A stretch of 38,955 bases of DNA from positions 1 through 38,955 of the IMG/VR virus record IMGVR_UViG_3300033148_003169; one strand, given 5' to 3'. Made by a program: the position numbers and the translations under genes. The notes below the pieces were generated by a model. The model saw only the letters and a program-made list of their open reading frames with translations. It had not been told where the DNA came from and did no database searches. This document shows positions 5,287 to 38,955 of this stretch, piece by piece. The DNA is from a virus. Numbering within the stretch: the stretch's first letter is position 1; each line of letters begins with the position of its first letter.

Positions 5287-6251
5287 AAAAATTGAGAGTT
5301 TTTGGTGTACCTTGGCATTTAGGTCATCAATATGAATTATCAAAATTTCCATTTGTTGAATGGTCTTGGTTATTACAATATAAAAGAAAATACTCTAAAT
5401 ATATCAGGACTGATTTTATGAAAAATTGGGTAACTCATTATGAACCAGGTAAATATGATTTAGCTATATTACATCTTGATCAACAATGTATTGATAAAGA
5501 TTTATTAGATAGAGGCAAAGCATCAGTTTATAGGCATTTAAATGAAGTTATAAAAGATATTCCTAAAATAGTGATTCAGCATGGAACACCATATTATCCT
5601 GAAAAATTTACGAAAGAATATATTATATCTGAAACTAAAAAATTGATAGGAGATAATATTATGGTTACTAATTCTAAAACTGCTGCAAAACAATGGGGAT
5701 TTGGAACTCCTATTATACACGGATTAGATCCCAACGAATGGTATGATTTAATAAAAGAACCGAGAATTATTACTGTTATCAGTCCGGCCGGTCTAGATAA
5801 ATATTATGATAGAATATTATTGAGATCAGTCAGAGAATATTTAGAGGAACAAAGTATAATGATGTGTCATATTACCGTTGATGTAAGAATGCGCGATTGG
5901 GATGATTATAGAAAATTATTAGGATCAAGTTTAATTTATTTTAATCCTACAAGAGAATCACCAATGCCAAGATCAAGAACAGAAGCAATGTTATCAGGAT
6001 GTTGCGTTATAACTACACCGCATCAAGATGCAGATACATTTATTGAAGATGGAGTTAATGGATTGATATGCAAAAGAAATCCGGAGCACATTATTAGATT
6101 AATTAATTGGTGTCTTAATAATTATGATGAGGCATTAGAAATTGGTAAAAGGGGAAAAGAGACTGCTAAAAAAATATTCTCAATGGAAAGATATCAAAAA
6201 GATTGGGAGAATTTAATGCGTCAAGTTATTAAAGATTATAATAATAAATAA
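5268..6251 (+). CDS. GT4-like glycosyltransferase
   Basis: A 327-residue GT-B protein. The N-terminal domain carries IVIQHGTPYYPE (an acceptor-side loop) and MVTNSKTAAKQWG. The donor domain has YFNPTRESPMPRSRTEAMLSGCCVITT, in which RES...E follows the EX7E pattern of GT4 enzymes, then DTFIEDGVNGLICKRNPE, a typical C-terminal GT4 segment. It overlaps the GT4-GT2 fusion by 19 nt and is 1 nt from the next gene. It is probably cytoplasmic and acts on the same glycan; specificity is unknown. Confidence 0.8.
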   Translation: MENKVIKKLRVFGVPWHLGHQYELSKFPFVEWSWLLQYKRKYSKYIRTDFMKNWVTHYEPGKYDLAILHLDQQCIDKDLLDRGKASVYRHLNEVIKDIPKIVIQHGTPYYPEKFTKEYIISETKKLIGDNIMVTNSKTAAKQWGFGTPIIHGLDPNEWYDLIKEPRIITVISPAGLDKYYDRILLRSVREYLEEQSIMMCHITVDVRMRDWDDYRKLLGSSLIYFNPTRESPMPRSRTEAMLSGCCVITTPHQDADTFIEDGVNGLICKRNPEHIIRLINWCLNNYDEALEIGKRGKETAKKIFSMERYQKDWENLMRQVIKDYNNK

Positions 6252-27650: not shown

Positions 27651-28425
27651 AATAACAGAAGAATTATACGGCGGAAAAGTTTTAATCGATTTTTTTCCTG
27701 ATTCACATCGTTACAAGAAAGCCGGAGAAAGAACTTATTTGATTTCTGTTACGGGAGCAACCGGAATAATTGATAAATCTCGGCCATTAATTATTTGGGC
27801 CACAGGATTATTCAAATCATTTGTTCTTCAATATTTTGAGGAATCAAAAGTCAAGAAATTCACTGCGGAAGAGCTAATGCCGGTGATTGAAGATGGCGCT
27901 GTTCAACACACAATCAAAAAAGAAAAGGCCGCCTCTATTGGTTCACAAGTTCACGAATGGTGCGAAATGTTTGTTAAAACTAAAATGGAAGGAAAAGAAG
28001 TTGACCCCGAAACACTTAAAGGATTAGACGAAAATGTGGAAAATGGAATCAACGCTTTTCTTGATTGGTATAATTCTCACAAAATAAAGTTTCTTGCCTC
28101 TGAAAGATTAGTATATTCTGTCAAACACGATTATGTGGGGATTTTTGACGCATTAGCAGTAATAGACGGAAAGACAACGCTGATAGATTTTAAGACCAGT
28201 AAAAGGGTATATAATGAACATCTCTATCAGCTTTCAGGGTATTGGAATGCAGTAGAGGAAGAAGATAAAGTTAAATTAGACGCTGGATTGATTTTACATT
28301 TTGATAAGGAAACTGCCAGTTTCGGAAAATACGAAATTGACCAAGAAGAACATCAAAAGAATCTTCCAGTAATGCTCGCTTGTTTAGTCGTCAAGCGAAG
28401 AGAAAAAGAATTAAGTAAATGGTAA
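27640..28425 (+). CDS. PD-(D/E)XK exonuclease (RecB/Cas4-like)
   Basis: A 261-residue nuclease. The family motifs appear in order: GSQVHEW with His105, Glu155, FDALAV with Asp170, LIDFKTSK with Asp183 and Lys185, and QLSGY with Gln197. These fit the PD-(D/E)XK nucleases that resect DNA ends for phage recombination. No iron-sulphur cysteine cluster like that of Cas4 is present. It overlaps the Sak4-like gene by 11 nt and is probably translated with it. Confidence 0.82.
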   Translation: MTNKITEELYGGKVLIDFFPDSHRYKKAGERTYLISVTGATGIIDKSRPLIIWATGLFKSFVLQYFEESKVKKFTAEELMPVIEDGAVQHTIKKEKAASIGSQVHEWCEMFVKTKMEGKEVDPETLKGLDENVENGINAFLDWYNSHKIKFLASERLVYSVKHDYVGIFDALAVIDGKTTLIDFKTSKRVYNEHLYQLSGYWNAVEEEDKVKLDAGLILHFDKETASFGKYEIDQEEHQKNLPVMLACLVVKRREKELSKW

Positions 28426-28431
28426 AAAATT

Positions 28432-28767
28432 ATGGCAAGTAAAAGAATCGGAGCTTTGTGGGTAAGAACCACACAAGACGGCAAACAATACTTTTCAGGA
28501 GTATTAAACGATTTAAGAGGGGATATTAACATAGCTATATTCCAAAACGACAGAAAAGAAAAAGAAAATCAACCAGATTATAATATCATTTTATCAGAAC
28601 CCAAAGGGCAAAATCAACAAAATCAAGTAAGCGCATTTCAGCCAGCGCCTATCCAACCAGTGCCAATTAAACCATTATCAGACAGCGAAATACCTGTAAT
28701 TGAGGATGGAAAACCAATGGCACAACCAGAAGGAGATGATATTGATATTGCAAACATACCTTTTTGA
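28432..28767 (+). CDS. Single-stranded DNA-binding protein-like (SSB-type acidic tail)
   Basis: A 111-residue protein. The N-terminal beta domain (RIGALWVRTTQDGKQYFSGVL, then NIAIFQNDRKEKENQPDYNIIL) is like the compact DUF736/OB-type domains of phage. A Pro/Gln-rich linker follows (residues 60-90), and the end is GDDIDIANIPF. An acidic tip that ends in Pro-Phe is the signature by which SSB proteins recruit partners. Next to Sak4, which works with a cognate SSB, this is very likely the phage SSB. Confidence 0.72.
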   Translation: MASKRIGALWVRTTQDGKQYFSGVLNDLRGDINIAIFQNDRKEKENQPDYNIILSEPKGQNQQNQVSAFQPAPIQPVPIKPLSDSEIPVIEDGKPMAQPEGDDIDIANIPF

Positions 28768-28769
28768 AC

Positions 28770-29141
28770 ATGTTGTTTTTTTCAAGAATACAAGCAGGGA
28801 AATTATTATTGAACAACATCAAAAACTTTAATGATTTCCTTGCTTCTCAAAAAGACGGAGTGTATGAAATTAGAATAAAGAAGTGGAGAAAGAAAAGGAG
28901 CTTACAACAGAATAATCTTTATTGGCTATGGATTGGAATAATAGCAAAGGATACTGGTTATGACGGTGATGAGCTACATACTACTTTTAGAGGAATGTTT
29001 TTGACAGACGAAAGCAAAAAATTACCACTTATCAGATCCACGACAGCGTTGACAACAATGGAATTTGGGCAATATCTTGGCAAGATAGAAAGAAAAATGG
29101 CTGATATGGGAATATCATTGCCTCATCCGGAAGAGTATTAA
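28770..29141 (+). CDS. NinB/Orf-like recombination mediator
   Basis: A 123-residue protein. KKWRKKRSLQQNNLYWLWIGIIAKDTGYDG near residues 37-67 is the hallmark of the lambda NinB (Orf) family, which loads annealing proteins and binds SSB. Near the C-terminus is TALTTMEFGQYLGKIERKMADMGISLPHPEEY. I prefer ATG 28770 to the in-frame TTG 28764, which would overlap the SSB stop. It is the last gene of the recombination module. Confidence 0.78.
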   Translation: MLFFSRIQAGKLLLNNIKNFNDFLASQKDGVYEIRIKKWRKKRSLQQNNLYWLWIGIIAKDTGYDGDELHTTFRGMFLTDESKKLPLIRSTTALTTMEFGQYLGKIERKMADMGISLPHPEEY

Positions 29142-29203
29142 CTGGGTTGGTCTTACTCATTTTGTGATACAGGATGTATTACAATGAAATTATTTTTTAT
29201 TCT

Positions 29204-29230
29204 ATAGGTAACTCACAAAGGTGAGCTATA
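29204..29230 (+). other. Small hairpin after the NinB-like gene
   Basis: CTCAC-AAAG-GTGAG forms a tight stem. TATAG and CTATA outside can extend it past a 4-nt bulge. No T-tract follows. The long gap 29142-29483 that it belongs to has no supported protein gene. Confidence 0.4.
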
Positions 29231-29306
29231 AGAGTCAAAATAGTTTTGAGAATTTCGACCTTTATAATTCAACCCACCTCTGAATAAATAAGACAGAACA
29301 GGAGGG

Positions 29307-29341
29307 CAGACGAGCTGAACCCTATCAAATCGGCTCGTCTG
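29307..29341 (+). other. Stable hairpin (12-bp stem) in the long intergenic region
   Basis: CAGACGAGCTGA pairs with TCGGCTCGTCTG, one G-T wobble, across an 11-nt loop. An additional AGGG (29303-29306) can pair with CCCT in the loop (29320-29323), allowing a small pseudoknot. No T-tract follows, so it is not a terminator. It may be a leader element or a replication-origin feature. Confidence 0.55.
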
Positions 29342-29357
29342 TGTAAAAGTTATTAAC

Positions 29358-29386
29358 TTGACTGAACTTTCAAAAAGAGGGAAAAT
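29358..29386 (+). promoter_or_regulatory. Candidate promoter of the replication gene leader
   Basis: TTGACT (29358-29363) and GAAAAT (29381-29386) are 17 bp apart. The -10 matches only 4 of 6 bases. A transcript from it would begin at about 29393, exactly at the first arm of the leader structure, as in the stronger promoter at 32033. Confidence 0.5.
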
Positions 29387-29393
29387 AGAAGAA

Positions 29394-29472
29394 GCAGACA
29401 GGTAATTGTTATTACATAGATTATTTGTTAGAATTTTAACAAATGCTCCCTGCCTGTCTGTTGGGAGCATTT
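29394..29472 (+). promoter_or_regulatory. A-B-A'-B' leader: pseudoknot or attenuator (element 1)
   Basis: Arm A (29394-29404, GCAGACAGGTA) can pair with A' (29451-29461, TGCCTGTCTGT). Arm B (29441-29450, AAATGCTCCC) pairs perfectly with B' (29463-29472, GGGAGCATTT). A' fills the 12-nt loop of the B hairpin. B' runs into TTTATTTATA, so B-B' looks like an intrinsic terminator only 11 nt before the ATG at 29484. A-A' would form first and could oppose termination or build an H-type pseudoknot. Confidence 0.65.
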
Positions 29473-29483
29473 TATTTATAAAA

Positions 29484-30245
29484 ATGAAATACAATATTTT
29501 CATAAATCAATTAGTTCTTTCAGCAAGCAAACTGGATATAAAAGATTGCGCTATATTAGATTATTTAAAAGATTTTTGTGGAATTGACGATAAAAAAATA
29601 AAACAATTAGAAATTACAGAAAAAGAAATAACATATAAATATACTTGGATAAATTTTAATCATATTATAAAAGAAATGCCTCTATTGGGAATTAAACAAA
29701 AAGCATCTATTAGTGAAAGATTAAAAAAAATACAAAAAGCAGGTTTTATTAAAATGTTTCGTGCTCCCGATAGAAGTATTTATATAAGATTAACCGAAAA
29801 AATAAAAGAATTATATTTTAATGGAGGTGTTAGTTTAAACAAACAGAGGTGTTCGTCAAAACTAACAGGGGTGTTAGCCAAAACTAACAGCACAACTATA
29901 TCATCACTCAATAATAATATCAGTAATAATATTAGGTTGGATAAACCAACCAAGAGAAAAAATCTTAAATATCCGAAAGACGATTATAACAAAATTATCA
30001 ATGCTTATCAGGAACTAAAAAATATAAAATTAAAAGGACCTGAATTCAGTCCGATTCAACAAGCTATCAAAACAATGTTTATGTCTGGCAGAAGCGTAAA
30101 AGAGATAATAGCGTGTATGGAGTTTATGGCGGAAGATGATTTTTTAAAGGATAAATGGACGATTCGCACAATTCGTTTGAAAATACCGGAGTTTATGGCC
30201 GGTAATTTAGAGGAAGAAGCGATAGTTCCAAATTATGCTAAATAA
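29484..30245 (+). CDS. Replication initiation-like protein (winged HTH)
   Basis: A 253-residue protein from ATG 29484; the frame opens upstream, but that part lies in the leader structure. Residues 1-110 hold a winged-HTH type domain (YTWINFNHIIKEMPLLGIKQKASISERLKKIQKAGFIKMF). A variable, serine- and asparagine-rich linker follows. The C-terminal part (FSPIQQAIKTMFMSGRSVKEIIACMEFM to KDKWTIRTIRLKIPEFM) resembles the ends of phage O-type or DnaD-like replication proteins. It probably opens the phage origin or loads the host helicase, as no phage helicase or polymerase is seen. Confidence 0.62.
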   Translation: MKYNIFINQLVLSASKLDIKDCAILDYLKDFCGIDDKKIKQLEITEKEITYKYTWINFNHIIKEMPLLGIKQKASISERLKKIQKAGFIKMFRAPDRSIYIRLTEKIKELYFNGGVSLNKQRCSSKLTGVLAKTNSTTISSLNNNISNNIRLDKPTKRKNLKYPKDDYNKIINAYQELKNIKLKGPEFSPIQQAIKTMFMSGRSVKEIIACMEFMAEDDFLKDKWTIRTIRLKIPEFMAGNLEEEAIVPNYAK

Positions 30246-30618
30246 AATATCAAAAAGTTTAAACAAGTATTCCAATTACGAAGAAATGAAAAGAAATAGT
30301 CCAGCTTTTGCTCAGGGCGTCAAAGATTTTAGAGAAGGCAAAGTTAAACTTCATTCAATAAATTATAACTGGATTAAAAAGTGGGTAAGCAATAAAGATT
30401 GGAATACGCATTATATCAAAAATAATTATTGTTTTCTTAAAAGCGAAAACAAAGGCGTGTGGGTCGGTTTCCTAAAAGAAGGGAATGGGTTGCCGGAAAA
30501 TTGCGAAATTTGTAATGAAGAAGAAATGCGCCAGATCGACCTCCACCGCCGGGCCTGTAATATTTATCCAAATCCGTTTAAATTATTAGAAACTAAACTA
30601 ACAACTAAACTAATATGA
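30235..30618 (+). CDS. Hypothetical protein after the replication gene
   Basis: A 127-residue protein that overlaps the replication gene by 11 nt. It begins MLNKISKSLNKYSNYEEMKR, and the middle is aromatic-rich (INYNWIKKWVSNKDWNTHYIKNNY). One pair of cysteines (NCEICNEEEM) near residues 91-94 and a further Cys near 109 could bind zinc weakly. No family recognised. Confidence 0.55.
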   Translation: MLNKISKSLNKYSNYEEMKRNSPAFAQGVKDFREGKVKLHSINYNWIKKWVSNKDWNTHYIKNNYCFLKSENKGVWVGFLKEGNGLPENCEICNEEEMRQIDLHRRACNIYPNPFKLLETKLTTKLI

Positions 30619-30749
30619 ATAACTACACCAAAGAAGAACTACAATTCTTATTAGACCACCCCGAAGACATAGAAACAGGTTGTGAAGCTGGTTTTGAGGA
30701 AGGTTGCCTTGAAGCCGAAATTAAACTTATTAGGGAGGCAATAAAATAA
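30615..30749 (+). CDS. Small acidic protein
   Basis: A 44-residue ORF starting MNNYTKEELQFLLDHPEDIE, then repeated acidic and glycine residues (TGCEAGFEEGCLEAEI) with a helical end. It overlaps the preceding gene by 4 nt (ATGA). The EEL..LL..PE start is common in small phage proteins. Function unknown. Confidence 0.5.
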   Translation: MNNYTKEELQFLLDHPEDIETGCEAGFEEGCLEAEIKLIREAIK

Positions 30750-30758
30750 TAAATAACT

Positions 30759-30938
30759 ATGGAGATACTATACAATATTTTAGTAGTAATCGGGTTTTTA
30801 TCATTATTTTGGACTATTCCGTTTTTAATAAGACACGGCTGGAATTCTGCGAGGAATAAAACTCAAAAGGTTTGTGATATGTGTTTTCGGGACATTGAAG
30901 GATTTAATAAATATCTAAAACAAAATAAAAAATCTTAA
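30759..30938 (+). CDS. Small membrane protein with CxxC
   Basis: A 59-residue ORF starting MEILYNILVVIGFLSLFWTI. Residues 3-24 are a membrane helix; the tail contains a Cys pair (VCDMCF) and a basic end. An early-region single-helix protein; possible exclusion or takeover factor, not recognised. Confidence 0.5.
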   Translation: MEILYNILVVIGFLSLFWTIPFLIRHGWNSARNKTQKVCDMCFRDIEGFNKYLKQNKKS

Positions 30939-30957
30939 ACTATAATCTTAAATAAAT

Positions 30958-31182
30958 ATGAAAAACAATAATACAATTAAAGAGTTAAGATGCGAAAAAT
31001 GTATGAAAGAAATAATTGACAAAAAGAATAAAAATTGTCTTCGTTATCTTAAACAGCAGAAAGAGGATATTATTAAAATACTCCAACCTCATCTTGATTA
31101 TTGTAGAAAACAAAATGGATTACCACATTGTAAGAATTGTGGATTGAGTTCTGAAACTTTTAAAAAAATAAACAACCTATAA
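30958..31182 (+). CDS. Putative zinc-binding protein
   Basis: A 74-residue protein with two CxxC pairs, CEKC at residues 12-15 and CKNC near residue 58, plus single cysteines at about 27 and 49. Between them lies a basic helix (YLKQQKEDIIKILQPHLDY). The pairs may make one zinc ribbon. A nucleic-acid role is plausible but unproved. Confidence 0.5.
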   Translation: MKNNNTIKELRCEKCMKEIIDKKNKNCLRYLKQQKEDIIKILQPHLDYCRKQNGLPHCKNCGLSSETFKKINNL

Positions 31183-31184
31183 TT

Positions 31185-31376
31185 ATGAACAAAGAACAAA
31201 TGATTTGGATAGTTGTAGATAAAAAAACAAACAAAAAAGAGATTATGTTAATTAATAATTGGGGGATTATTCCAATGTTTTCTAAGAAAAAACACGCTTT
31301 AGAATTTATGAGAGAAGAAATGTTTCCAGAAGATTTAAAAGTTGTTAAATTTACTATAAAAGAAAAACTAAATTAG
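31185..31376 (+). CDS. Hypothetical small protein
   Basis: A 63-residue protein starting MNKEQMIWIVVDKKTNKKEI. The alternation of strands (IWIVVDK, EIMLINNWG, FTIKEKL) and helix (KKKHALEFMREEM) suggests a small alpha/beta fold. It starts 2 nt after the zinc-binding gene. No family recognised. Confidence 0.5.
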   Translation: MNKEQMIWIVVDKKTNKKEIMLINNWGIIPMFSKKKHALEFMREEMFPEDLKVVKFTIKEKLN

Positions 31377-31380
31377 ATTT

Positions 31381-31411
31381 AAACCTATACAAAACTACTG
31401 CTAATCTATAC
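31381..31411. repeat. AAACCTATAC box pair, 21-bp period (copy 2)
   Basis: AAACCTATAC starts at 31381 and a diverged TAATCTATAC at 31402, again 21 bp apart. The 17 bases TTTAAACCTATACAAAA around the first box also occur at the lysis-gene copy (24898). The pair precedes a small membrane-protein gene (31445). Confidence 0.55.
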
Positions 31412-31444
31412 AAAAGAGAATAATTAACCTAAACACATATAATT

Positions 31445-31567
31445 ATGGAAATAGACATAATAGATTTAATACAGAGCATACAAAATAATTTATTTAGATT
31501 TTTAATCGTTTTTGTCATAGCTCAAGCTGTTGTTAAAATAATTCTGGCTTGGGTCAGCAAAAAATAA
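31445..31567 (+). CDS. 40-residue membrane peptide
   Basis: The ORF starts MEIDIIDLIQSIQNNLFRFL and continues with hydrophobic IVFVIAQAVVKIILAWV and a basic KK end. One membrane helix of about 20 residues, N-terminus charged. It is the first gene downstream of the second AAACCTATAC pair. Unknown function. Confidence 0.5.
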   Translation: MEIDIIDLIQSIQNNLFRFLIVFVIAQAVVKIILAWVSKK

Positions 31568-31581
31568 AACATTGAAAAACT

Positions 31582-31992
31582 ATGGAATTAAAAGAACAGG
31601 TTTGCGACCTTAAATACGCCAAAGAACTTAAAGAGCTTGGAGTAAAACAAGATAGTTTGTGGTATTGGAGAGTTGAAATTGATGATGGCGAAGAATATCC
31701 TGAAATATGGAGAGATAATTTTAATACGAAAATTGGATTAAAGAAATATTCCGCCTTCTCAACTTCAGAATTGGGGAGTATGTTGCCTCACAAAGTAGGC
31801 GGAGTTAGTGTCGGGCTAAATCCTCTTGTGGCATATTTAAACATAACAAAGCCAAGTAATTGGTTCGTAAGTTATGGAAAAGGTAAATTAAGAGGAGAAC
31901 AAGATGGCTACCCTCTTCAAGATGAATCAGATAGTAATTTGGCTAATGCTATGGCTAAAATGCTAATTTATTTAATCAAAGAAAAACTATGA
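31582..31992 (+). CDS. Hypothetical phage protein
   Basis: A 136-residue protein starting MELKEQVCDLKYAKELKELG. WRVEIDDGEEYPEIWRD and YSAFSTSELGSMLPHKVGG, later NLANAMAKMLIYLIKEKL, are typical of a family of small proteins found in many phages. I know no function. It is 14 nt after the membrane peptide. Confidence 0.5.
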   Translation: MELKEQVCDLKYAKELKELGVKQDSLWYWRVEIDDGEEYPEIWRDNFNTKIGLKKYSAFSTSELGSMLPHKVGGVSVGLNPLVAYLNITKPSNWFVSYGKGKLRGEQDGYPLQDESDSNLANAMAKMLIYLIKEKL

Positions 31993-32032
31993 AAGAAGAA
32001 AACAGAGACAACAAAGACATATTTTTTAGACA

Positions 32033-32061
32033 TTGACAAACTATTTTAAATAACTTATAAT
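32033..32061 (+). promoter_or_regulatory. Perfect sigma-70 promoter (TTGACA-N17-TATAAT)
   Basis: TTGACA at 32033-32038 and TATAAT at 32056-32061 are separated by exactly 17 bp: both hexamers and spacing match consensus. Transcription would begin near 32068, at the first arm of the leader structure. It is the strongest promoter seen in this genome and supports a host with an ordinary housekeeping sigma factor. Confidence 0.85.
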
Positions 32062-32067
32062 GAACAA

Positions 32068-32121
32068 AAGCGGTGAGTTTTATTATTTATGCCCTCGCAT
32101 AGCTCACCGCTTAGCGAGGGC
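32068..32121 (+). promoter_or_regulatory. A-B-A'-B' leader: pseudoknot or attenuator (element 2)
   Basis: A (32068-32077, AAGCGGTGAG) pairs perfectly with A' (32103-32112, CTCACCGCTT). B (32091-32098, GCCCTCGC) pairs perfectly with B' (32114-32121, GCGAGGGC). A' lies in the B-B' loop, so the stems are interleaved, forming an H-type pseudoknot or two alternatives. TTTCGTT follows B', a weak terminator-like tract. A begins at the predicted transcript start. The layout copies element 1 with different sequences. Confidence 0.75.
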
Positions 32122-32136
32122 TTTCGTTATAAAGTT

Positions 32137-32745
32137 ATGCCAATAGGATATAAACATACAACAGAAACAAAAAAAAAGATAAGTGAATCTCATAAAGGAA
32201 AAGGAAACCCAATGTTTGGCAAATGTTTATCTGAAATACACAGAAATAGAATAAGTAAAGCTAATAAAGGCAGAAAATTTCCAAAAGAATTTGGAGAAAA
32301 GATAAGTAAGAGAATGAAAGGAAAAGATAATCCAATGTTCGGAAAACATCATTCAAAAGAAACTAAAAGGAGAATAAGTGAAGCTCACAAGGGACACCCT
32401 TCTTATTGTCCGTTTCCTAAAGGACATCAGGGATATTGGCTCGGTAAGAAAAGAGAAGATATGATTGGTGAAAATCATTTTAATTGGCAAGGTGGTAAAT
32501 CCTTTAAACCTTATTCCATTGATTGGACTGAAACTTTAAGAAGAAGTATCAGAGAAAGAGATAACTATATTTGTCAGATTTGTAATCAGTATGGTTATCC
32601 TGTTCACCACATTGATTATGATAAAAAGAATTGCGACCCAGATAATCTAATAACTTTATGTAGAAGTTGTCATACTAAAACTAATTATAATCGTAATTAT
32701 TGGATAAAGTATTTTAATAATAGAAAACAAAATGAAAGACCTTAA
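32137..32745 (+). CDS. HNH homing endonuclease with NUMOD3 repeats
   Basis: A 202-residue protein from ATG 32137; a longer frame from 32089 would begin within the leader structure. Three NUMOD3-type DNA-binding repeats occupy residues 6-90 (KKKISESHKG, NPMFGK, RRISEAHKG). The HNH nuclease follows: SIRERDNYICQICN with Cys146/Cys149, VHHID with His157/158, Asn170, and LCRSCH with Cys175/Cys178. It is a free-standing mobile endonuclease with its own promoter and leader, so it was probably inserted as a unit. Confidence 0.85.
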   Translation: MPIGYKHTTETKKKISESHKGKGNPMFGKCLSEIHRNRISKANKGRKFPKEFGEKISKRMKGKDNPMFGKHHSKETKRRISEAHKGHPSYCPFPKGHQGYWLGKKREDMIGENHFNWQGGKSFKPYSIDWTETLRRSIRERDNYICQICNQYGYPVHHIDYDKKNCDPDNLITLCRSCHTKTNYNRNYWIKYFNNRKQNERP

Positions 32746-32941
32746 TCTTTTTGAACAAAACACAATAATAACAATAGCCCCATATAATGCTGGGACAAAG
32801 ATTTTTAATAAGAAAGATTTTGATGTTAAAATGATAACAGAAGCGGGGGAAAGAATAGTATTATTAAGACCAAAAACCGCCCCTGAAATAACATTAAATG
32901 GAAACAAAGGAATAAATAAAGAAGATAAGGTATTAGAATAA
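32732..32941 (+). CDS. Hypothetical small protein
   Basis: A 69-residue protein starting MKDLNLFEQNTIITIAPYNA and including GTKIFNKKDFDVKMITEAGERIVLLRPKTAP. The strands suggest a small beta fold. It overlaps the HNH gene end by 14 nt, so it may be a coupled passenger or older phage gene. No family recognised. Confidence 0.45.
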   Translation: MKDLNLFEQNTIITIAPYNAGTKIFNKKDFDVKMITEAGERIVLLRPKTAPEITLNGNKGINKEDKVLE

Positions 32942-32977
32942 AGGTCGGAGAATAATAACTTAACTTTTTAAACTATT

Positions 32978-33259
32978 ATGGAAACAGGAACAGGAAGAGA
33001 TACAACAAAATTAGAAGCATCTTTACACAATGTAAGAAAAAACATTGACAAGAATATCCAAGAAGTTGGCAAATATAAATTAGACCCTAATTCAGAAACG
33101 CCAGACGAAAGAAATAGATGCCAAAGAGAAATCGCATTGGCATACACCAAACTACAAGAAGCTAAAATGTGGGTTGGGAAATGTTTAGAAGCTATCGGAA
33201 GCCCGTTCCCTGAAGAATTGAGAGATGAAGCAGAGCAACCAGATAAAAACGAAGAATAG
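32978..33259 (+). CDS. Acb2/Tad1-like hairpin-domain protein (putative anti-CBASS/anti-Thoeris sponge)
   Basis: A 93-residue protein. Residues 44-72 (DERNRCQREIALAYTKLQEA, then KMWVGKCLEAIG) resemble the Acb2/Tad1 hairpin domain, whose helix pattern includes R.....AL.KLQEA..W...A. Family members bind cyclic nucleotide signals made by CBASS or Thoeris systems and block abortive infection. It sits among small accessory genes, where anti-defence genes often lie. The N-terminal 40 residues are charged and the tail is acidic. The match is by pattern, so another helical hairpin family is possible. Confidence 0.5.
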   Translation: METGTGRDTTKLEASLHNVRKNIDKNIQEVGKYKLDPNSETPDERNRCQREIALAYTKLQEAKMWVGKCLEAIGSPFPEELRDEAEQPDKNEE

Positions 33260-33279
33260 TTCTTTCAAGGAGAAACGCT

Positions 33280-33405
33280 ATGAGAAGCAAAAAGCACAAG
33301 TTTGTATCTTTCCGACATCTTTCATTTGAAAAGATACAGGAAAGACATCTCAACAATGTTCCTCACATTATGAGAGAGGAGGTGATGTCAGATGGCGAAG
33401 GATAA
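33280..33405 (+). CDS. Small protein with Shine-Dalgarno start
   Basis: A 41-residue ORF starting MRSKKHKFVSFRHLSFEKIQ and ending MREEVMSDGEG. CAAGGAG lies 7 nt before the ATG, an ordinary ribosome site unlike most genes here. It is basic at its start. It contains the ribosome site of the next ORF near its end. Unknown function. Confidence 0.45.
   Translation: MRSKKHKFVSFRHLSFEKIQERHLNNVPHIMREEVMSDGEG
33377..33385 (+). promoter_or_regulatory. Full-length Shine-Dalgarno sequence
   Basis: AGGAGGTGA matches the whole anti-Shine-Dalgarno region of 16S rRNA, 6 nt before the ATG at 33392. It fixes the start of the following small ORF and shows the host carries a standard 16S 3' end, although most genes of this phage do without such a site. 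Confidence 0.75.
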
Positions 33406-33475
33406 AACAGGTTGGATTAATTCCCCTGCCGTAAAGCACGACGGGAAAGACGAACGAGATGGCTATGATGTGTAG
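33392..33475 (+). CDS. 27-residue peptide behind a perfect ribosome site
   Basis: The ORF starts MAKDKTGWINSPAVKHDGKD and ends GYDV. It overlaps the preceding ORF by 14 nt. The strong ribosome site is the main argument that it is translated. Charged, soluble, no recognised family. Confidence 0.45.
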   Translation: MAKDKTGWINSPAVKHDGKDERDGYDV

Positions 33476-33482
33476 CCACAAA

Positions 33483-33514
33483 GAGGAGGTAATAAACGGA
33501 ATTATTGCCTCCTC
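33483..33514 (+). other. Long perfect hairpin carrying AGGAGG
   Basis: GAGGAGGTAATAA pairs with TTATTGCCTCCTC, a 13-bp stem with one G-T pair and a 6-nt loop. The left arm carries a Shine-Dalgarno-like AGGAGG that would be hidden in the stem. It follows the 27-residue peptide and may protect its mRNA. No T-tract follows. Confidence 0.6.
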
Positions 33515-33525
33515 CCCTTAAAACT

Positions 33526-33663
33526 ATGAAAGATGATACAAAAGGTTCAATTTTATTATTATTATTATTTTTATCTATTATTGTTGCTTCGCCAATTTTG
33601 CTTTTGCTTTGGATTATTAAGAAGCTAACGGGCTGGGACGGGATACTTAAAAACTTATTTTAG
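33526..33663 (+). CDS. Small membrane protein
   Basis: A 45-residue ORF starting MKDDTKGSILLLLLFLSIIV with further hydrophobic ASPILLLLWII, then KKLTGWDGILKNLF. One or two membrane segments and an amphipathic C-terminus. It starts 11 nt after the hairpin. Could be holin-like or an exclusion protein, not recognised. Confidence 0.45.
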   Translation: MKDDTKGSILLLLLFLSIIVASPILLLLWIIKKLTGWDGILKNLF

Positions 33664-33723
33664 ATGAAAAAGAAATATAACCAAAGCAAGGTAATGAAAA
33701 AGAAAATGAATATTGTAAAATAG
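33664..33723 (+). CDS. Tiny lysine-rich ORF, doubtful
   Basis: A 19-residue ORF (MKKKYNQSKVMKKKMNIVK) begins directly after the preceding stop (TAGATG). Eight of 19 residues are lysine. The stop-start contact hints at coupling, but the sequence is so A-rich that it may be chance. Confidence 0.2.
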   Translation: MKKKYNQSKVMKKKMNIVK

Positions 33724-33765
33724 CCGAAGCAAGAATTAAAGCTCAAATGAAACCTTTGTTATAAT

Positions 33766-33804
33766 AAAAAAAGCGCGCCACCCTAAACCGGGACATAGGC
33801 GCGC
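33766..33804 (-). terminator. Minus-strand intrinsic terminator
   Basis: Read on the minus strand: GCGCGCC, then a small inner CCC/GGG stem, then GGCGCGC and a run of seven T. In this AT-rich DNA a 7-bp pure-GC stem stands out. On the plus strand no T-tract follows, so it works leftward only. Confidence 0.7.
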
Positions 33805-33840
33805 GGAGTAAATCGGTCAAGATACTCACTTTATAAATAA
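33766..33840 (-). ncRNA. Predicted minus-strand small RNA (about 75 nt)
   Basis: A minus-strand promoter (33847-33876) and an intrinsic terminator (33766-33804) frame a transcript of about 75 nt. It contains a small GAGTA/TACTC hairpin at its 5' side and the terminator stem. There is no ORF worth naming. It would be the only minus-strand unit of the genome, lying between the small accessory genes and the second HNH gene. Confidence 0.5.
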
Positions 33841-33846
33841 GACGAT

Positions 33847-33876
33847 ATTAGATAATAAATATTACATAATTGTCAA
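33847..33876 (-). promoter_or_regulatory. Minus-strand promoter of the predicted small RNA
   Basis: On the minus strand, TTGACA (33876-33871) and TCTAAT (33852-33847) are 18 bp apart: a perfect -35 and a -10 one base off. It directs transcription toward the minus-strand terminator. It abuts the HNH start codon at 33877, so the two genes may compete for this short region. Confidence 0.5.
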
Positions 33877-34137
33877 ATGAATTACGATAAACTAAAAGGG
33901 ATTTATCTTGAGAAAGGAATTCAATATTGTGAAGCGAGATTAGATGATTGTATGATAAATTTTGGTCTTTCATTTCATCACAGACATAAAAGAATCTGGT
34001 ATAAGATGAAGCCCGAAAGAAAAAAATTATTAACAGATTTTAATCATACTATAATTGTTTGCGCTAAATGTCATTCTACATTAGAATGGAATAGAAAAAA
34101 GCACAGAGAATTATTTAATAAATTAAGAAAAATATGA
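33877..34137 (+). CDS. Small HNH-family protein
   Basis: An 86-residue protein with an HNH/zinc layout: Cys18, Cys25, HHRHKR with His34/35, Asn56, and CAKCH with Cys62/Cys65. Small HNH proteins next to packaging genes in other phages (HK97 gp74 style) help the terminase. Here the glycan cluster lies between it and the terminase. The start lies next to the minus-strand -35, and its stop overlaps the epimerase start (ATGA). A homing role is less likely without NUMOD repeats. Confidence 0.6.
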   Translation: MNYDKLKGIYLEKGIQYCEARLDDCMINFGLSFHHRHKRIWYKMKPERKKLLTDFNHTIIVCAKCHSTLEWNRKKHRELFNKLRKI

Positions 34138-35165
34138 AAAATACAAAAAAAGTATTATTAACAGGTGCGGCCGGAGCAATAGGGATTCATGTTTTGGCTC
34201 ATATAATGCACAATACAGATTGGGAAGTTATAGCATTAGATAGTTTTGATAAGGACCATAAAGGTTATTTTGATAGAATCACAAGGGTTTGTAGGAATCA
34301 TCAAGATTGGCCTAAAAGAATTAAAATTTTTACGCACGATCTTAATGCTCCATTCACACAAAGACAAATAGAAGAAATAGGAAAAATAGATTATATTTTA
34401 AATTTAGCTTCTCGTTCTGATGTTCAGAATTCTATTGATGACCCAATACCTTTTGTAAAAAATAATACTAATTTGATGCTTAATATATTGGAATATGCAA
34501 GGATTATAAAGCCGGAAATATTTTTACATTTTTCAACAGATGAAGTTTATGGTCCGGCTCCTAAAGAATCTAAAGGACATAAAGAATGGGAGAAGATAAT
34601 TCCTTCTAATCCGTATTCAGCTTCAAAAGCATGTCAAGAAGCAATAGCTATTGCTTGGTGGAGAAGTTATGGAATACCGCTTGTTATAACTAATACAATG
34701 AATAATTTTGGAGAAATGCAAGCGCCCTCTAAATTTCCCGCAATGATACAAAAAAGAATAGAAAAAGGGGAAACAATAAAAGTTCATTCTGCTAAAAATG
34801 GAGAGATAGGAACTCGTTATTATTTACATTCAAGAAATTCAGCTGATGCTATTCTATTTATTCTTAATAATGTCAAACCAGTTTTACATAGTTCAGGAGA
34901 AATAGATATGCCTGTTCGCTTCAATATTGTAGGCGACAAACAAATAAATAATAGAGAGTTAGTTGATATTATATCTAAATTAATGGATAAACCGGCACAA
35001 ATAGAATTAGTTTATTTTCACGATGATAACCCAGGACACGATTTACATTATGGATTAGATGGAAGTAAGTTAAAAGAATTAGGATGGAATCCCCCATTAT
35101 CTTTTGAAAAGAGTATGAAAAATACTATTAAATGGCAACAAAGAAATAGTGAGTGGATAAAATAA
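34134..35165 (+). CDS. NAD-dependent sugar epimerase/dehydratase (RmlB-like)
   Basis: A 343-residue short-chain dehydrogenase. TGAAGAIG near residues 10-17 binds NAD. The catalytic set is TDE at 135-137 (FSTDEVYG) and Tyr161/Lys165 (NPYSASK). TDE is typical of dTDP-glucose 4,6-dehydratases, and length also fits. It would convert a nucleotide-glucose into a 4-keto-6-deoxy sugar. It is the first gene of the glycan cluster and overlaps the small HNH gene by 4 nt. Confidence 0.82.
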   Translation: MKNTKKVLLTGAAGAIGIHVLAHIMHNTDWEVIALDSFDKDHKGYFDRITRVCRNHQDWPKRIKIFTHDLNAPFTQRQIEEIGKIDYILNLASRSDVQNSIDDPIPFVKNNTNLMLNILEYARIIKPEIFLHFSTDEVYGPAPKESKGHKEWEKIIPSNPYSASKACQEAIAIAWWRSYGIPLVITNTMNNFGEMQAPSKFPAMIQKRIEKGETIKVHSAKNGEIGTRYYLHSRNSADAILFILNNVKPVLHSSGEIDMPVRFNIVGDKQINNRELVDIISKLMDKPAQIELVYFHDDNPGHDLHYGLDGSKLKELGWNPPLSFEKSMKNTIKWQQRNSEWIK

Positions 35166-35208
35166 AAAATTTACCGGCAAAATAGCTAATAAAATTAATA
35201 CCTAAATT

Positions 35209-35553
35209 ATGGGATTAGGAAATAAAATGTTTAAAAATATTAGAGAATACTTTTGGTTAAAAAAAGTATTAAAGAAAAAAGAGTTTGCTTTATTTAGTGT
35301 TAAATGTGATATTGAATTTTTTAATAAATGTAAGAAAAGAGATTTAGAAATGACTAATGAGCAAGAAAATAATTTGAGGGTTTTATTAAAGAAAGAAATT
35401 AATAAAGAAGAAAAAGATGCTGATCAAGTAAAGATAGTTGATTTGACATTAATGATTGAACAGGTTAAAAAGGTTAAAAAATTGTACGAGCAGAGTTTAA
35501 TTGTGGAAAAAGAATTAATAAATTATATAGAACTTTTAAAAAAGAAATTATGA
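35209..35553 (+). CDS. Coiled-coil protein of the glycan cluster
   Basis: A 114-residue, mostly helical and charged protein (starts MGLGNKMFKNIREYFWLKKV; later VDLTLMIEQVKKVKKLYEQS). Not recognised. No membrane segment. It sits between the RmlB-like and deacetylase genes and overlaps the latter by 4 nt, so it may bind one of the enzymes. ATG 35227 is an alternative start. Confidence 0.5.
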   Translation: MGLGNKMFKNIREYFWLKKVLKKKEFALFSVKCDIEFFNKCKKRDLEMTNEQENNLRVLLKKEINKEEKDADQVKIVDLTLMIEQVKKVKKLYEQSLIVEKELINYIELLKKKL

Positions 35554-36152
35554 ATTTTAGATTTATTAGTAGCTGGGATGATGGTAAAAGATTAGATTTA
35601 AGACTTGCTAAATTATTAAAAAAATACAACATCCCAGCGATATTTTATATTCCAACTTGTTGTGAATTGACAGATGATGAGATAATGTCTTTATATAAAA
35701 TGGGTTTTGAGATAGGCGGCCATACTTTTTCTCATCCGCAAGATTTGAAATTATTAAATCATATTGAATTGGAATGTGAAATTGAAAGTAATAAAAAATT
35801 TCTTGAAGATATATTAAAAACCAAAATAACAAAGTTCTGTTATCCGAGAGGAAGATATGATGATAATGTTATTGAAGCTGTTATTAAGGCCGGATATAAG
35901 GAAGCGAGAACAACAAAAGTATTATGTAATAAAGAACCGGATAATAGATTTAAAACAAGCACGACAATTCATATTTATCAAAGGTCAGAATATAAAGAAA
36001 TTGACTGGTTAAAATTAGCAAAGGATTTATTTATTAAAACAAAAAAAGAAAATGGGGTTTATCATCTTTGGGGACACAGTCATGAAATAGACAGAGATAA
36101 TAATTGGGAAAAATTAGAAGAATTATTAAAATTTATTAGAGAAAATATATGA
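35550..36152 (+). CDS. Polysaccharide deacetylase (NodB/CE4-like)
   Basis: A 200-residue protein with CE4 motifs in order: SWDDG with Asp10/Asp11, GGHTFSH with His58/His62, RGRYDD with Arg100, and LWGHSHE with His176/178. These residues bind a divalent metal and hydrolyse N-acetyl groups from sugars. No signal peptide, so a nucleotide- or lipid-linked sugar in the cytoplasm is the likely substrate. It is coupled by ATGA overlaps on both sides. Confidence 0.82.
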   Translation: MNFRFISSWDDGKRLDLRLAKLLKKYNIPAIFYIPTCCELTDDEIMSLYKMGFEIGGHTFSHPQDLKLLNHIELECEIESNKKFLEDILKTKITKFCYPRGRYDDNVIEAVIKAGYKEARTTKVLCNKEPDNRFKTSTTIHIYQRSEYKEIDWLKLAKDLFIKTKKENGVYHLWGHSHEIDRDNNWEKLEELLKFIRENI

Positions 36153-36334
36153 ACATAAAATGTACTAATTGTAATTATCAAGGTAAAGCAAAATATGGAA
36201 GAAATGTTTTAATAGAATTAATGTTATTTCTTTTTACTTGGTGGCTATTTTTCATTCCATTATTTTTGTATTACGGATTTACAAAGAGATGGATTTGTAA
36301 AGAATGTGGATGTAAATATGTTATAAAAATATGA
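36149..36334 (+). CDS. Small membrane-zinc-ribbon protein (LITAF-like)
   Basis: A 61-residue protein with CTNC near the start and CKECG near the end. Between them is a hydrophobic stretch of about 24 residues (LIELMLFLFTWWLFFIPLFLYY). Two CxxC pairs around a membrane-inserted hydrophobic part is the layout of LITAF-like zinc domains. It may tether glycan enzymes to the membrane. Coupled on both sides by 4-nt overlaps. Confidence 0.55.
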   Translation: MNIKCTNCNYQGKAKYGRNVLIELMLFLFTWWLFFIPLFLYYGFTKRWICKECGCKYVIKI

Positions 36335-37188
36335 TTAAAGTATATATTCCAAATATTAGTAGTGGAAGCGTAGGAGGGGGTTGGACCTTCATTAGGAATC
36401 TTAAAGAAGGATTAAAGAGAAGAGTTGAGTTTGTTGATAATATGATGGATTGTGATGTTTATTTTATAGCCGGGCCGACAATTGTTAATCCTTCAGAAGT
36501 TCATGAAGCTGATCGGAATAAAAAGAGAATAATTTTTAGGGTTGATAATGTTCCAAGAAAATCAAGAAATAAAAGATCAACTCCTCATGAGAGAATGGTA
36601 GAGTTTTCTAAACTTGCGCATGTTGTTATATATCAATCCGAATGGGCCAAAAGATATTGTGAGCCACTATGTGGAGAAGGAGAGGTGATTTATAACGGAG
36701 TAAATAAGGAATTATTTAATCCTAATTATAGTGAAAGACCAAAACATAAAAGATATTTATTTGCCTATCATGGTAAAAATGAATTGAAAGGATTTTGGAT
36801 AGCGCATTATATGTTTCAAATGTATAATAGACACTATCCCGATTCAGAGTTTTGGTTCATATATGATTTTGGAAGGGATATTGATGAACTTGAAATATCT
36901 AATTTTGATTTTTGGAATGGAGAGAAATATAGACATTTGAATAAAGTAGATAGTCCGGAAGAAATGGTAAATATTATGAGAAAATGCACTCATTTAATAT
37001 GTCCATCAATAGCAGATGCATCTCCTAATATTGTTTTAGAAGCAAGAGCCTGTGGATTAAATATAGAATATCCATTTAGTTGCAATAAAGATGTGTCCGG
37101 AGTAGTGGAACTAACAAATCCTAACCTTGACATATCATTAGAAAGAATGTGTGAGGAATATTTATCATTATTTAGATTAATAACATAA
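36331..37188 (+). CDS. GT4-like glycosyltransferase
   Basis: A 285-residue GT-B protein. NISSGSVGGGWTFIRNL is the glycine-rich N-terminal loop. VIYNGVNKELFNP and RYLFAYHGKNELKG begin the donor domain, and CPSIADASPNIVLEARACGLN near residues 231-250 holds the EX7E-like site. It ends in a helix that returns to the N-domain. It probably acts on the same glycan as the genes at 1076-7116. Donor unknown. Confidence 0.75.
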   Translation: MIKVYIPNISSGSVGGGWTFIRNLKEGLKRRVEFVDNMMDCDVYFIAGPTIVNPSEVHEADRNKKRIIFRVDNVPRKSRNKRSTPHERMVEFSKLAHVVIYQSEWAKRYCEPLCGEGEVIYNGVNKELFNPNYSERPKHKRYLFAYHGKNELKGFWIAHYMFQMYNRHYPDSEFWFIYDFGRDIDELEISNFDFWNGEKYRHLNKVDSPEEMVNIMRKCTHLICPSIADASPNIVLEARACGLNIEYPFSCNKDVSGVVELTNPNLDISLERMCEEYLSLFRLIT

Positions 37189-37772
37189 TGTCATCATATA
37201 CAAGACAACAATTAGAAAATTGGTTAAAAAAAATAGATGTGAAAACAGATAAGGTTCTTGATGTTGGTGGTGCGCAGAATCCTATTAAGGGCAGAACAAA
37301 GAATTGGAATGTTAAGGATTATAAGATATTAGATTTAAAGCAACCACATCATTCTAAAACTGAAATAGATTTTGTTTGGGATATAAACAACTGGATTGAA
37401 AATAGTGGTAGAGAAAATGAAATAGAAGATTTTGATATAGTATTTTGTTTAGAAGTTTCTGAATATTTATGGGATACAGCATCAGCTTTTAATAATCTAA
37501 ATTGGTTTCTTAAAAAAGGAGGTATTTTATATATCTCTTTCCATTTTCTTTATCCTCATCATAATCCGGAGGGAAAAGATTATTTAAGATATACAAAGTG
37601 GGGTGTTGAAAAATTATTAAAAGAAACAAGATTTAAGATAGATGAAATTATACCAAGATTAGCTGAAAATATTGGACCAAATGCACTTTATATTGCAGAA
37701 GAAATGCGACCATCAAAAGAATATAAAGGTCATGACGAAGTAGGATATTTAGTAAAAGCAATAAAAATATGA
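37188..37772 (+). CDS. Class I SAM-dependent methyltransferase
   Basis: A 194-residue protein. VLDVGGAQNPIKGRT near residue 23 is a motif I variant, FDIVFCLEVSEYLWDTASAF near 84 the acidic/aromatic motif II, and LKKGGILYISFHFLYPHH the post-motif loop. Length is typical of Methyltransf_11 proteins. Tight overlap with both neighbours places it in the glycan pathway. Acceptor unknown. Confidence 0.75.
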   Translation: MSSYTRQQLENWLKKIDVKTDKVLDVGGAQNPIKGRTKNWNVKDYKILDLKQPHHSKTEIDFVWDINNWIENSGRENEIEDFDIVFCLEVSEYLWDTASAFNNLNWFLKKGGILYISFHFLYPHHNPEGKDYLRYTKWGVEKLLKETRFKIDEIIPRLAENIGPNALYIAEEMRPSKEYKGHDEVGYLVKAIKI

Positions 37773-38590
37773 TATTAATTACAGGACATTTAGGTTTTAT
37801 AGGATCTCATTTAGCAGAATATCTTAAAGAAAACAAAATAGAAGCTATTGGTTATGATATAAATAGTTTTCAAAGTAGTGATATAAGGGATAGATTTAAA
37901 TTAGAAAAAGTATTTGCTGAAAATAATATTGATTGTGTTATTCATTTGGCCGCGCGCGCTGGAGTAAGAATGGGAGAAGAATATCCTGAAGAGTTTTTAT
38001 CTACAAATGTTTTAGGATCTAAAAATGTTCTTGATATGTGTGAGAAATATAAAGTAAATAAAGTTATTTTATTTTCAAGTAGCTCTGTGTATGGTTATAA
38101 TAATATACCTGTTTCATTTTACGGAATGACAAAAAAAATGATGGAAGATTTATCTAATTTATATGATATTCCAAGTATATTTATTGTCAGACCATTTACT
38201 GTTTATGGAGAAAACGGAAGAAAGGATCAAGTAATATTCAAATGGATTAATCAGATTAAAGCAGGAAAACCAATAACATTTTACGGAGATGGATCTATCT
38301 CAAGATGGTATACTTATGTTGGAGATTTAATTAATGGAGTAAAATTAATGATTGATTCCAAAAAAACTGGAAAAACAAATGTAGATTTAGCTGGTGATCG
38401 TAGAATAAAGTTAGACTATTTATTGGATATATTTATATTTGTTTTAAATGATATAAAAGTTAATAAATTACCATTACCTGATGTTGATGATGTTTATAAT
38501 GTTCCAATGGGTAATGATATAGGATATGAACCAAAACAAAACTTTGAAGAAAAGGTCAAAGAAATAATTAAAAAAGAATTAAATTTATGA
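37769..38590 (+). CDS. UDP-sugar 4-epimerase-like protein (UDP-glucuronate type)
   Basis: A 273-residue SDR enzyme. GHLGFIGSH near residue 6 binds NAD. HLAARAGVRMG near 59-69 is close to the LAAQAGVR loop of UDP-glucuronate 4-epimerases. Catalytic SSSSVYG with Tyr118/Lys122 (FYGMTKK) follows. It would turn UDP-GlcA into UDP-GalA. Its stop overlaps the ATG of the dehydrogenase gene that would supply UDP-GlcA, which supports the pairing. It is shorter than usual (about 320-350). Confidence 0.78.
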   Translation: MILITGHLGFIGSHLAEYLKENKIEAIGYDINSFQSSDIRDRFKLEKVFAENNIDCVIHLAARAGVRMGEEYPEEFLSTNVLGSKNVLDMCEKYKVNKVILFSSSSVYGYNNIPVSFYGMTKKMMEDLSNLYDIPSIFIVRPFTVYGENGRKDQVIFKWINQIKAGKPITFYGDGSISRWYTYVGDLINGVKLMIDSKKTGKTNVDLAGDRRIKLDYLLDIFIFVLNDIKVNKLPLPDVDDVYNVPMGNDIGYEPKQNFEEKVKEIIKKELNL

Positions 38591-38955
38591 AATATAAAAT
38601 AGGAATAGTCGGAATAGGAATGGTGGGAGGAGCTTTAAGAAAATATTTTGAACAGAAAACTAATTACGATTTGTTTTTATATGACAAAAAGGGGATCGGT
38701 TCAATAGAAGAAGTCAATAAAGCAGATTATATTTATGTCTGTTTGCCTACTCCTTATGTAGAGGGAAAGGGTTGCGATACAAGCATAGTTGAGGAAGCCA
38801 TAAAACAATTTGAATCAAGCAAGGTGATTATAATTAAATCAACTGTGATACCTGGCACAACACAAAGATTACAAGATAAATTTTTAAAACATAAGTTTTT
38901 ATTCAATCCTGAATTTCTAACGGAGGAAACAGCAGATCAGGATATGTCTTTTCCT
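38587..38955 (+). CDS. Nucleotide-sugar (UDP-glucose-type) dehydrogenase, N-terminal part; continues at position 1
   Basis: The first 110 residues plus the repeat of the 268-residue protein described at 1-477. GIVGIGMVGGAL binds NAD; YIYVCLPTPY, IIIKSTVIPGTTQRL and FNPEFLTEETA are the NAD-domain hallmarks of UDP-glucose/GDP-mannose dehydrogenases. The ATG at 38587 overlaps the epimerase stop. Frame is unbroken across the circular join (330 nt to position 38916). Confidence 0.88.
   Translation, partial: MKYKIGIVGIGMVGGALRKYFEQKTNYDLFLYDKKGIGSIEEVNKADYIYVCLPTPYVEGKGCDTSIVEEAIKQFESSKVIIIKSTVIPGTTQRLQDKFLKHKFLFNPEFLTEETADQDMSFP
38917..38955. repeat. Terminal direct repeat, right copy (circular overlap)
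   Basis: Identical to positions 1-39. See the left copy. The gene that contains it is in the same frame in both places, so the repeat is most simply an assembly overlap of a circular or circularly permuted genome. Confidence 0.93.

Follow-up and report, generated by a model that had tools for sequence, protein, structure and literature searches.

Element 2, the leader at positions 32033-32138 of the window (the whole stretch of 38,955 bases of phage DNA analysed here), most likely acts as a T4-type gate on the start codon, to which an A-B-A'-B' core has been added. It lies ahead of a mobile homing endonuclease gene, and we assign this reading a probability of roughly 0.6. According to this model, the 5' arm of an outer stem, C, contains a strong host-type promoter, and the 3' arm, C', would mask the start codon. 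Read-through RNA coming from the upstream co-directional genes would carry C, thereby allowing C:C' to form and the AUG to be hidden. RNA initiated at the embedded promoter would start at A, lack C and leave the AUG free, such that its own transcripts would be the only ones from which the endonuclease is translated. The A-B-A'-B' core would occupy the loop of C:C', and most likely folds co-transcriptionally as A:A' or B:B', two stems of about equal stability in element 2. In read-through RNA, its folding would bring C close to C', and the RNA of the embedded promoter would be given a structured 5' end. The sequences show the promoter, the three stems, their compensatory changes and the association with two different NUMOD/HNH-type genes; we infer the start of transcription, the read-through, the translational block and the entire role of A and B.

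Layout of the leader and its gene

The long ORFs of the window phage are colinear on the + strand, including the genes located on either side of element 2, which is organized as follows.

32033-32061, + strand: sigma-70 consensus promoter TTGACA-17-TATAAT, 12/12 (promoter scan)
32050-32064, + strand: C, 5' arm of the outer stem, with the whole -10 box inside (RNAduplex with C')
32068-32077, + strand: A, AAGCGGTGAG, 10 bp, starting at the predicted +1 (repeat analysis)
32091-32098, + strand: B, GCCCTCGC, 8 bp (repeat analysis)
32103-32112, + strand: A', CTCACCGCTT, complement of A, within the B-B' loop (repeat analysis)
32114-32121, + strand: B', GCGAGGGC, complement of B, 1 nt 3' of A' (repeat analysis)
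32123-32138, + strand: C', 3' arm of the outer stem, reaching into the AUG at 32137-32139 (RNAduplex; likewise in phages G018 and G026)
32137-32745, + strand: HNH homing endonuclease gene with NUMOD3-like repeats (PHROG HNH/homing endonuclease matches to 6.7e-13)

Much of what a first, sequence-only reading had described was borne out. The perfect consensus promoter that it placed at 32033 (-35 box TTGACA at 32033-32038, spacer of 17 nt, -10 box TATAAT at 32056-32061) is the only site scoring 12/12 in the scanned 11 kb (28000 to 38955). The predicted +1, about 6-7 nt 3' of the -10 box, falls at 32067-32068 and coincides with the first base of A. Stems A (10 bp) and B (8 bp) are indeed perfect and interleaved, A' lying within the B-B' loop, with gaps of 13/4/1. 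The short T-rich tract reported after B' is also present (TTTCGTT), but as a poor U-tract behind a stem rather than a terminator-grade one, and element 2 is absent from the list returned by a terminator scan of the window. No evident Shine-Dalgarno sequence was found in element 2. That reading contained neither the third stem, C:C', nor the homologues in other phages, and it is C:C' over the start codon that best explains the function of element 2.

The PHROG matches agree with the earlier claim that the element leads into a homing endonuclease gene, whose NUMOD3 assignment relies on a repeat recognized by eye and on relatives carrying PF07460. An alternative in-frame ATG occurs at 32089. The start at 32137 is supported by the homologue found in G018 (MPIGY/MPKGY), and is favoured over 32089 because G018 has a stop between both positions.

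Homologues in two other phages

A blast search of element 2 against all loci recovered a copy in phage G018 (locus L131, IMG/VR 3300020171_000065), with 88.8% identity over 89 nt. Its stems are the same except for one end pair, its promoter is TTGACA-16-TATACT, and the gene located 3' of it is another NUMOD/HNH-type gene starting with the residues MPKGY. Positions 11343-11440 of L131 and 32048-32147 of the window thus form a near-identical endonuclease leader upstream of different HNH-type genes. Since the window phage and G018 have almost no proteins in common, the leader seems, from these sequences, to be mobile, carried along with endonuclease genes or passed from one to another.

Just two further viral records, those of G018 and G026, contain the framework TTATGCCC..GGGCTTT..ATGCCAA, bringing the full homologues of the leader to three with element 2 itself. 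The window phage and G026 are true relatives, their structural proteins being about 30-59% identical. At the G026 locus (L143), A is 13 bp long and B 7 bp, and the ORF 3' of the leader is short (46 codons) and not HNH. In a structural alignment made by hand and checked by script, element 2 and G026 differ by two-sided compensatory pairs, four in A and three in B, with no broken pair. A plain MAFFT alignment of the two, imperfect in register in A, has 87.5% of cells pairing, a value reached by 0/500 shuffles and falling to <=48% when the alignment is slid. The 20 matches to the A hairpin in cellular genomes are isolated hairpins, each lacking the element.

A predicted outer stem over the start codon

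The predicted energy of C:C' (RNAduplex) is -12.1 kcal/mol in element 2 (0/500 shuffles), -13.3 in G018 and -11.1 in G026 (p=0.002 each). Because AT-rich -10 boxes pair readily with other AT-rich DNA, 2591 promoter-to-ATG pairs from the same data were used as controls, among which 1.3% reach -12 and 2.6% reach -11. The stem contains a bulge in element 2, where C' includes the AU of the AUG; the full AUG is included in G018 and G026. In all three phages, C contains the -10 box, wholly or mostly, and one pair of C:C' inside or at the edge of this box covaries as A-U, C-G and G-C. Since the -10 box sits within C, RNA initiated at the predicted start would lack C, and C:C' could therefore form in read-through RNA only.

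This organization is not shared by HNH genes at large. Related HNH genes provided 147 candidate start codons, of which none has the interleaved element and only two lie under a stem covering the start at p<=0.01, indicating that neither feature is general to such genes. A covariance model combining C:C' and A:A' (R1), which recovers its three training loci, found one additional locus, L026:5298-5343 (E=0.0017). This hairpin (5298-5335) consists of a 14-bp C:C' with TTAACA-17-TATAAT, ATGCCAAAAGG and an 8-nt loop, and lies within a group I intron (RF00028 at 60.9 bits; L026 5054-5417). The hairpin precedes an apparent degenerate endonuclease start. Compensatory change preserves both A and B in G026. 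The L026 relative has the outer stem and neither A nor B, and so partly realizes the case that the sequence-only reading had named as refuting it, homologues with only one of the stems. For this reason, C:C' is probably the more ancient or more general component, to which A-B-A'-B' was added. As both L026 and T4 segB do without the core, gating by C:C' does not explain the role of A-B-A'-B'.

A generic scan for start codons in promoter-containing hairpins in these phages returned 39 cases, compared with 4 in shuffles; with a promoter of at least 9/12, the counts were 15 and 2. Overall, the organization is about ten times as frequent as in shuffles. At L163 3618(-), L290 1765(-), L160 1530(-) and L256 2238(-), start codons lie in a 12-14 bp stem with the -10 box in its 5' arm.

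The interleaved core

The A-B-A'-B' arrangement of element 2 exceeds chance. The summed stack energy of its two stems is -41.0 (-35.7 for element 1, described below), and when both strands of the whole window were dinucleotide-shuffled, 0/300 shuffles reach -33, with a mean of 0.013 sites at -30. A set of non-redundant viral DNA totalling 1.63 Mb, made up of the fetched HNH relatives, biased to HNH-bearing phages and including the window, contains 11 sites at <=-35 compared with ~0.8 per shuffled set, for a class definition that was made after element 2 had been seen. The folding z-score is -3.65 for the RNA from +1 and -4.91 once the promoter region is added, in which case the predicted fold is C:C' enclosing the core, at -36.7 kcal/mol.

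No Rfam family was found above its gathering score in the window, and the best weak matches at permissive thresholds have E values of at least 0.02, far below cut-offs; those to mir-320 (E 0.02) and GOLLD (E 0.26) were treated as chance. A type III antitoxin, a HEARO/omega RNA and a ribozyme were rejected because they have no Rfam match here and their anatomy is wrong.

The best matches to the topology outside the window reproduce the layout of element 2 in unrelated letters.

L128: promoter 12/12, A of 12 bp, B of 10 bp, T-run T5
L111: A-B-A'-B', T-run T6
L112: promoter 11/12, HNH gene, no T-tract
L180: T-run T4, nearby start codon, no promoter-like site immediately 5' of it
L102 and L251: fit to the A-B-A'-B' layout, real T-runs

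A stem corresponding to C:C' was looked for in element 1, L111, L112, L128, L180, L102 and L251, and is absent. Of 239 perfect promoters in other phages, a biased sample, about one is a clear A-B-A'-B' case, that of L251. Directly 3' of A-B-A'-B' and T5/T6, the stretches L128 13395-13730 and L102 16820-17100 comprise ~300 nt that are apparently structured, contain no long ORFs and match no Rfam family. Strong interleaved repeats at L005 5951-5997 overlap the last part of an SSB-like gene, whose C-terminus reads DEPPF by eye.

How the core itself acts can be viewed in several ways. In an attenuator, B:B' followed by the T-tract would be an intrinsic terminator, A:A' would be an antiterminator exclusive with B:B', and whatever occupies A would set the level of read-through. 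The close energies of the A-only and B-only folds of element 2 (-14.7 and -16.1) fit such a device, and make a bistable A:A'/B:B' switch conceivable. The attenuator is also favoured by the spacing between A' and B', which is 0-2 nt in nearly every member, and by the real T-runs found after B' in L111, L128, L102, L251 and L180. Moreover, where a T-rich tract follows a long-loop hairpin, complementarity between loop and upstream sequence (the preceding 70 nt) is enriched. At <=-16, 7 were observed (six loci, element 2 being counted on both strands), compared with 0.6 in shuffles and 0 in the downstream control. Hairpins without a T-tract have no comparable excess (15 observed, 8.4 shuffled, 17 in the downstream control). 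Such complementarity is not general to terminators, because control hairpins with the same B (70 distinct, from 79 viral stretches) are not above shuffles, the true homologue excepted. In element 2 and both homologues, however, B' is followed by TTTCG, TTTG and TTTAC, TTT only in each case, which makes strong termination unlikely and weakens the termination or attenuation role raised from the sequence alone. Together with the omission of element 2 by the terminator scan, the missing T-tract of L112 and the lack of a known occupant of A, given that A starts at +1, this leads us to consider an attenuator improbable.

The core could also act as a 5'-end cap, a pseudoknot or stable stem shielding the mRNA of the embedded promoter from 5'-dependent decay, against which 5' stem-loops are protective. 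Topology alone would suffice for this purpose, conservation of sequence being unnecessary, and A starts at or near the predicted +1 in element 2, L111 and G026, and not far from it in element 1. Nevertheless, A begins at about +4 to +10 in L102, L251, L128 and L112, and the third loop (L3, 0-2 nt) is too short for an A stem of 8-13 bp in a classical H-type pseudoknot. On general grounds of RNA geometry, such a pseudoknot with both full stems is sterically implausible for element 2, where L3 is 1 nt for a stem of 10 bp. We thus regard a cap as a distinctly weak candidate. Finally, chance or a mobile palindromic insertion devoid of RNA function and carrying a promoter by accident would agree with the presence of the element in unrelated phages alongside different HNH-type genes, but is very improbable considering that the three stems retain pairing via compensatory changes and that 0/300 window shuffles match.

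Beyond the start-codon gate, it is conceivable, though we hold it only tentatively and would not bet on it, that A-B-A'-B' directly after a strong promoter amounts to a phage leader RNA module, so far undescribed and independent of sequence. Its bistable, exclusive stems would time or protect the downstream transcript, and it would have been slotted into homing-endonuclease start-codon gates. The proposed members are element 1, element 2 with its G018 and G026 homologues, L111, L112, L128, L102, L251 and L180. If the core acts alone, it would constitute a simple, portable regulatory part missed by sequence-based RNA searches.

Element 1 and its surroundings

Element 1 was previously described as the model that element 2 copies, and its topology indeed recurs.

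29395-29472, + strand: element 1, A-B-A'-B' with stems of 8 and 10 bp, without C:C'
29484-30245, + strand: gene after element 1, replication-initiator-like by eye from its translation

Its presumed promoter, TTGACT-17-GAAAAT, does not hold up, as it matches at 9/12, which is chance level; 58 promoter-like sites were found compared with 59.0 expected. A C:C' stem at element 1 is not supported (p=0.42 and 0.93). Hence the recurring RNA class proposed from the sequence alone survives as a layout recurring with unrelated sequence in several other phages, but elements 1 and 2 are not established as one functional class, because element 1 has neither C:C' nor a convincing promoter; they need not share one function.

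The gene located after element 1 (P0001) has no PHROG match. In G001, a close relative (67% aa identity in the portal protein), P0001 has no match and the HNH match is weak and elsewhere, and both elements therefore look accessory. A separate near-perfect hairpin, GCAGACGAGC..GCTCGTCTG, lies at 29307-29341, 54 nt upstream of element 1, and has the word CAGAC in common with A of element 1.

Comparison with known systems

If the gate operates as proposed, the rule established in T4, whereby homing endonucleases are silent in read-through RNA, would extend to small AT-rich phages that use ordinary sigma-70 promoters. The control leader may travel between phages bearing different endonuclease genes, and a compact interleaved RNA core would have been added to it, its topology being kept while its sequence changes.

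H-type pseudoknots such as the T4 gene 32 leader and ToxI have the A-B-A'-B' order of element 2, whereas the members of the class described here have an L3 of 0-2 nt facing a first stem of 8-13 bp. Element 2 also has neither tandem repeats nor a toxin gene. RNA attenuators, like element 2, have two overlapping alternative pairings 5' of a gene, and several members here have a terminator-like second hairpin. Element 2 departs from attenuators in that A' is in the loop and not in the stem of the terminator, its U-tract is poor, and neither a leader peptide nor a ligand is evident.

In Bacillus subtilis, sigG has a large hairpin in the read-through RNA of the upstream operon and none in the RNA from its own promoter (PMC5942855). 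The limitation of the hairpin to read-through RNA is what is proposed here for element 2, sigG being a cellular sigma factor gene and the gene after element 2 a phage endonuclease.

In the T4 genes I-TevI, I-TevII, I-TevIII and segB, and in Aeh1 mobE, the inhibitory structure is confined to RNA initiated at upstream promoters, and the genes' own transcripts lack the needed sequence (PMC2988022). These hairpins cover the Shine-Dalgarno sequence, whereas it is the start codon that would be covered in element 2. Their loops are of a few nt (4 nt in segB, with interleaved repeats absent), compared with the 54-66 nt A-B-A'-B' core of the leaders described here. Their promoters are middle or late phage promoters, whereas that of element 2 is a perfect sigma-70 consensus, which makes element 2 a variant that works like the T4 family rather than a member of the family proper. 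The intron-borne T4 endonucleases have their counterpart here in the L026 leader. As in the T4-type hairpins, the gene controlled by element 2 is a homing endonuclease gene, the 3' arm lies over the translation start, and the placement of the promoter, given the predicted start, would strip the 5' arm from the gene's own transcripts.
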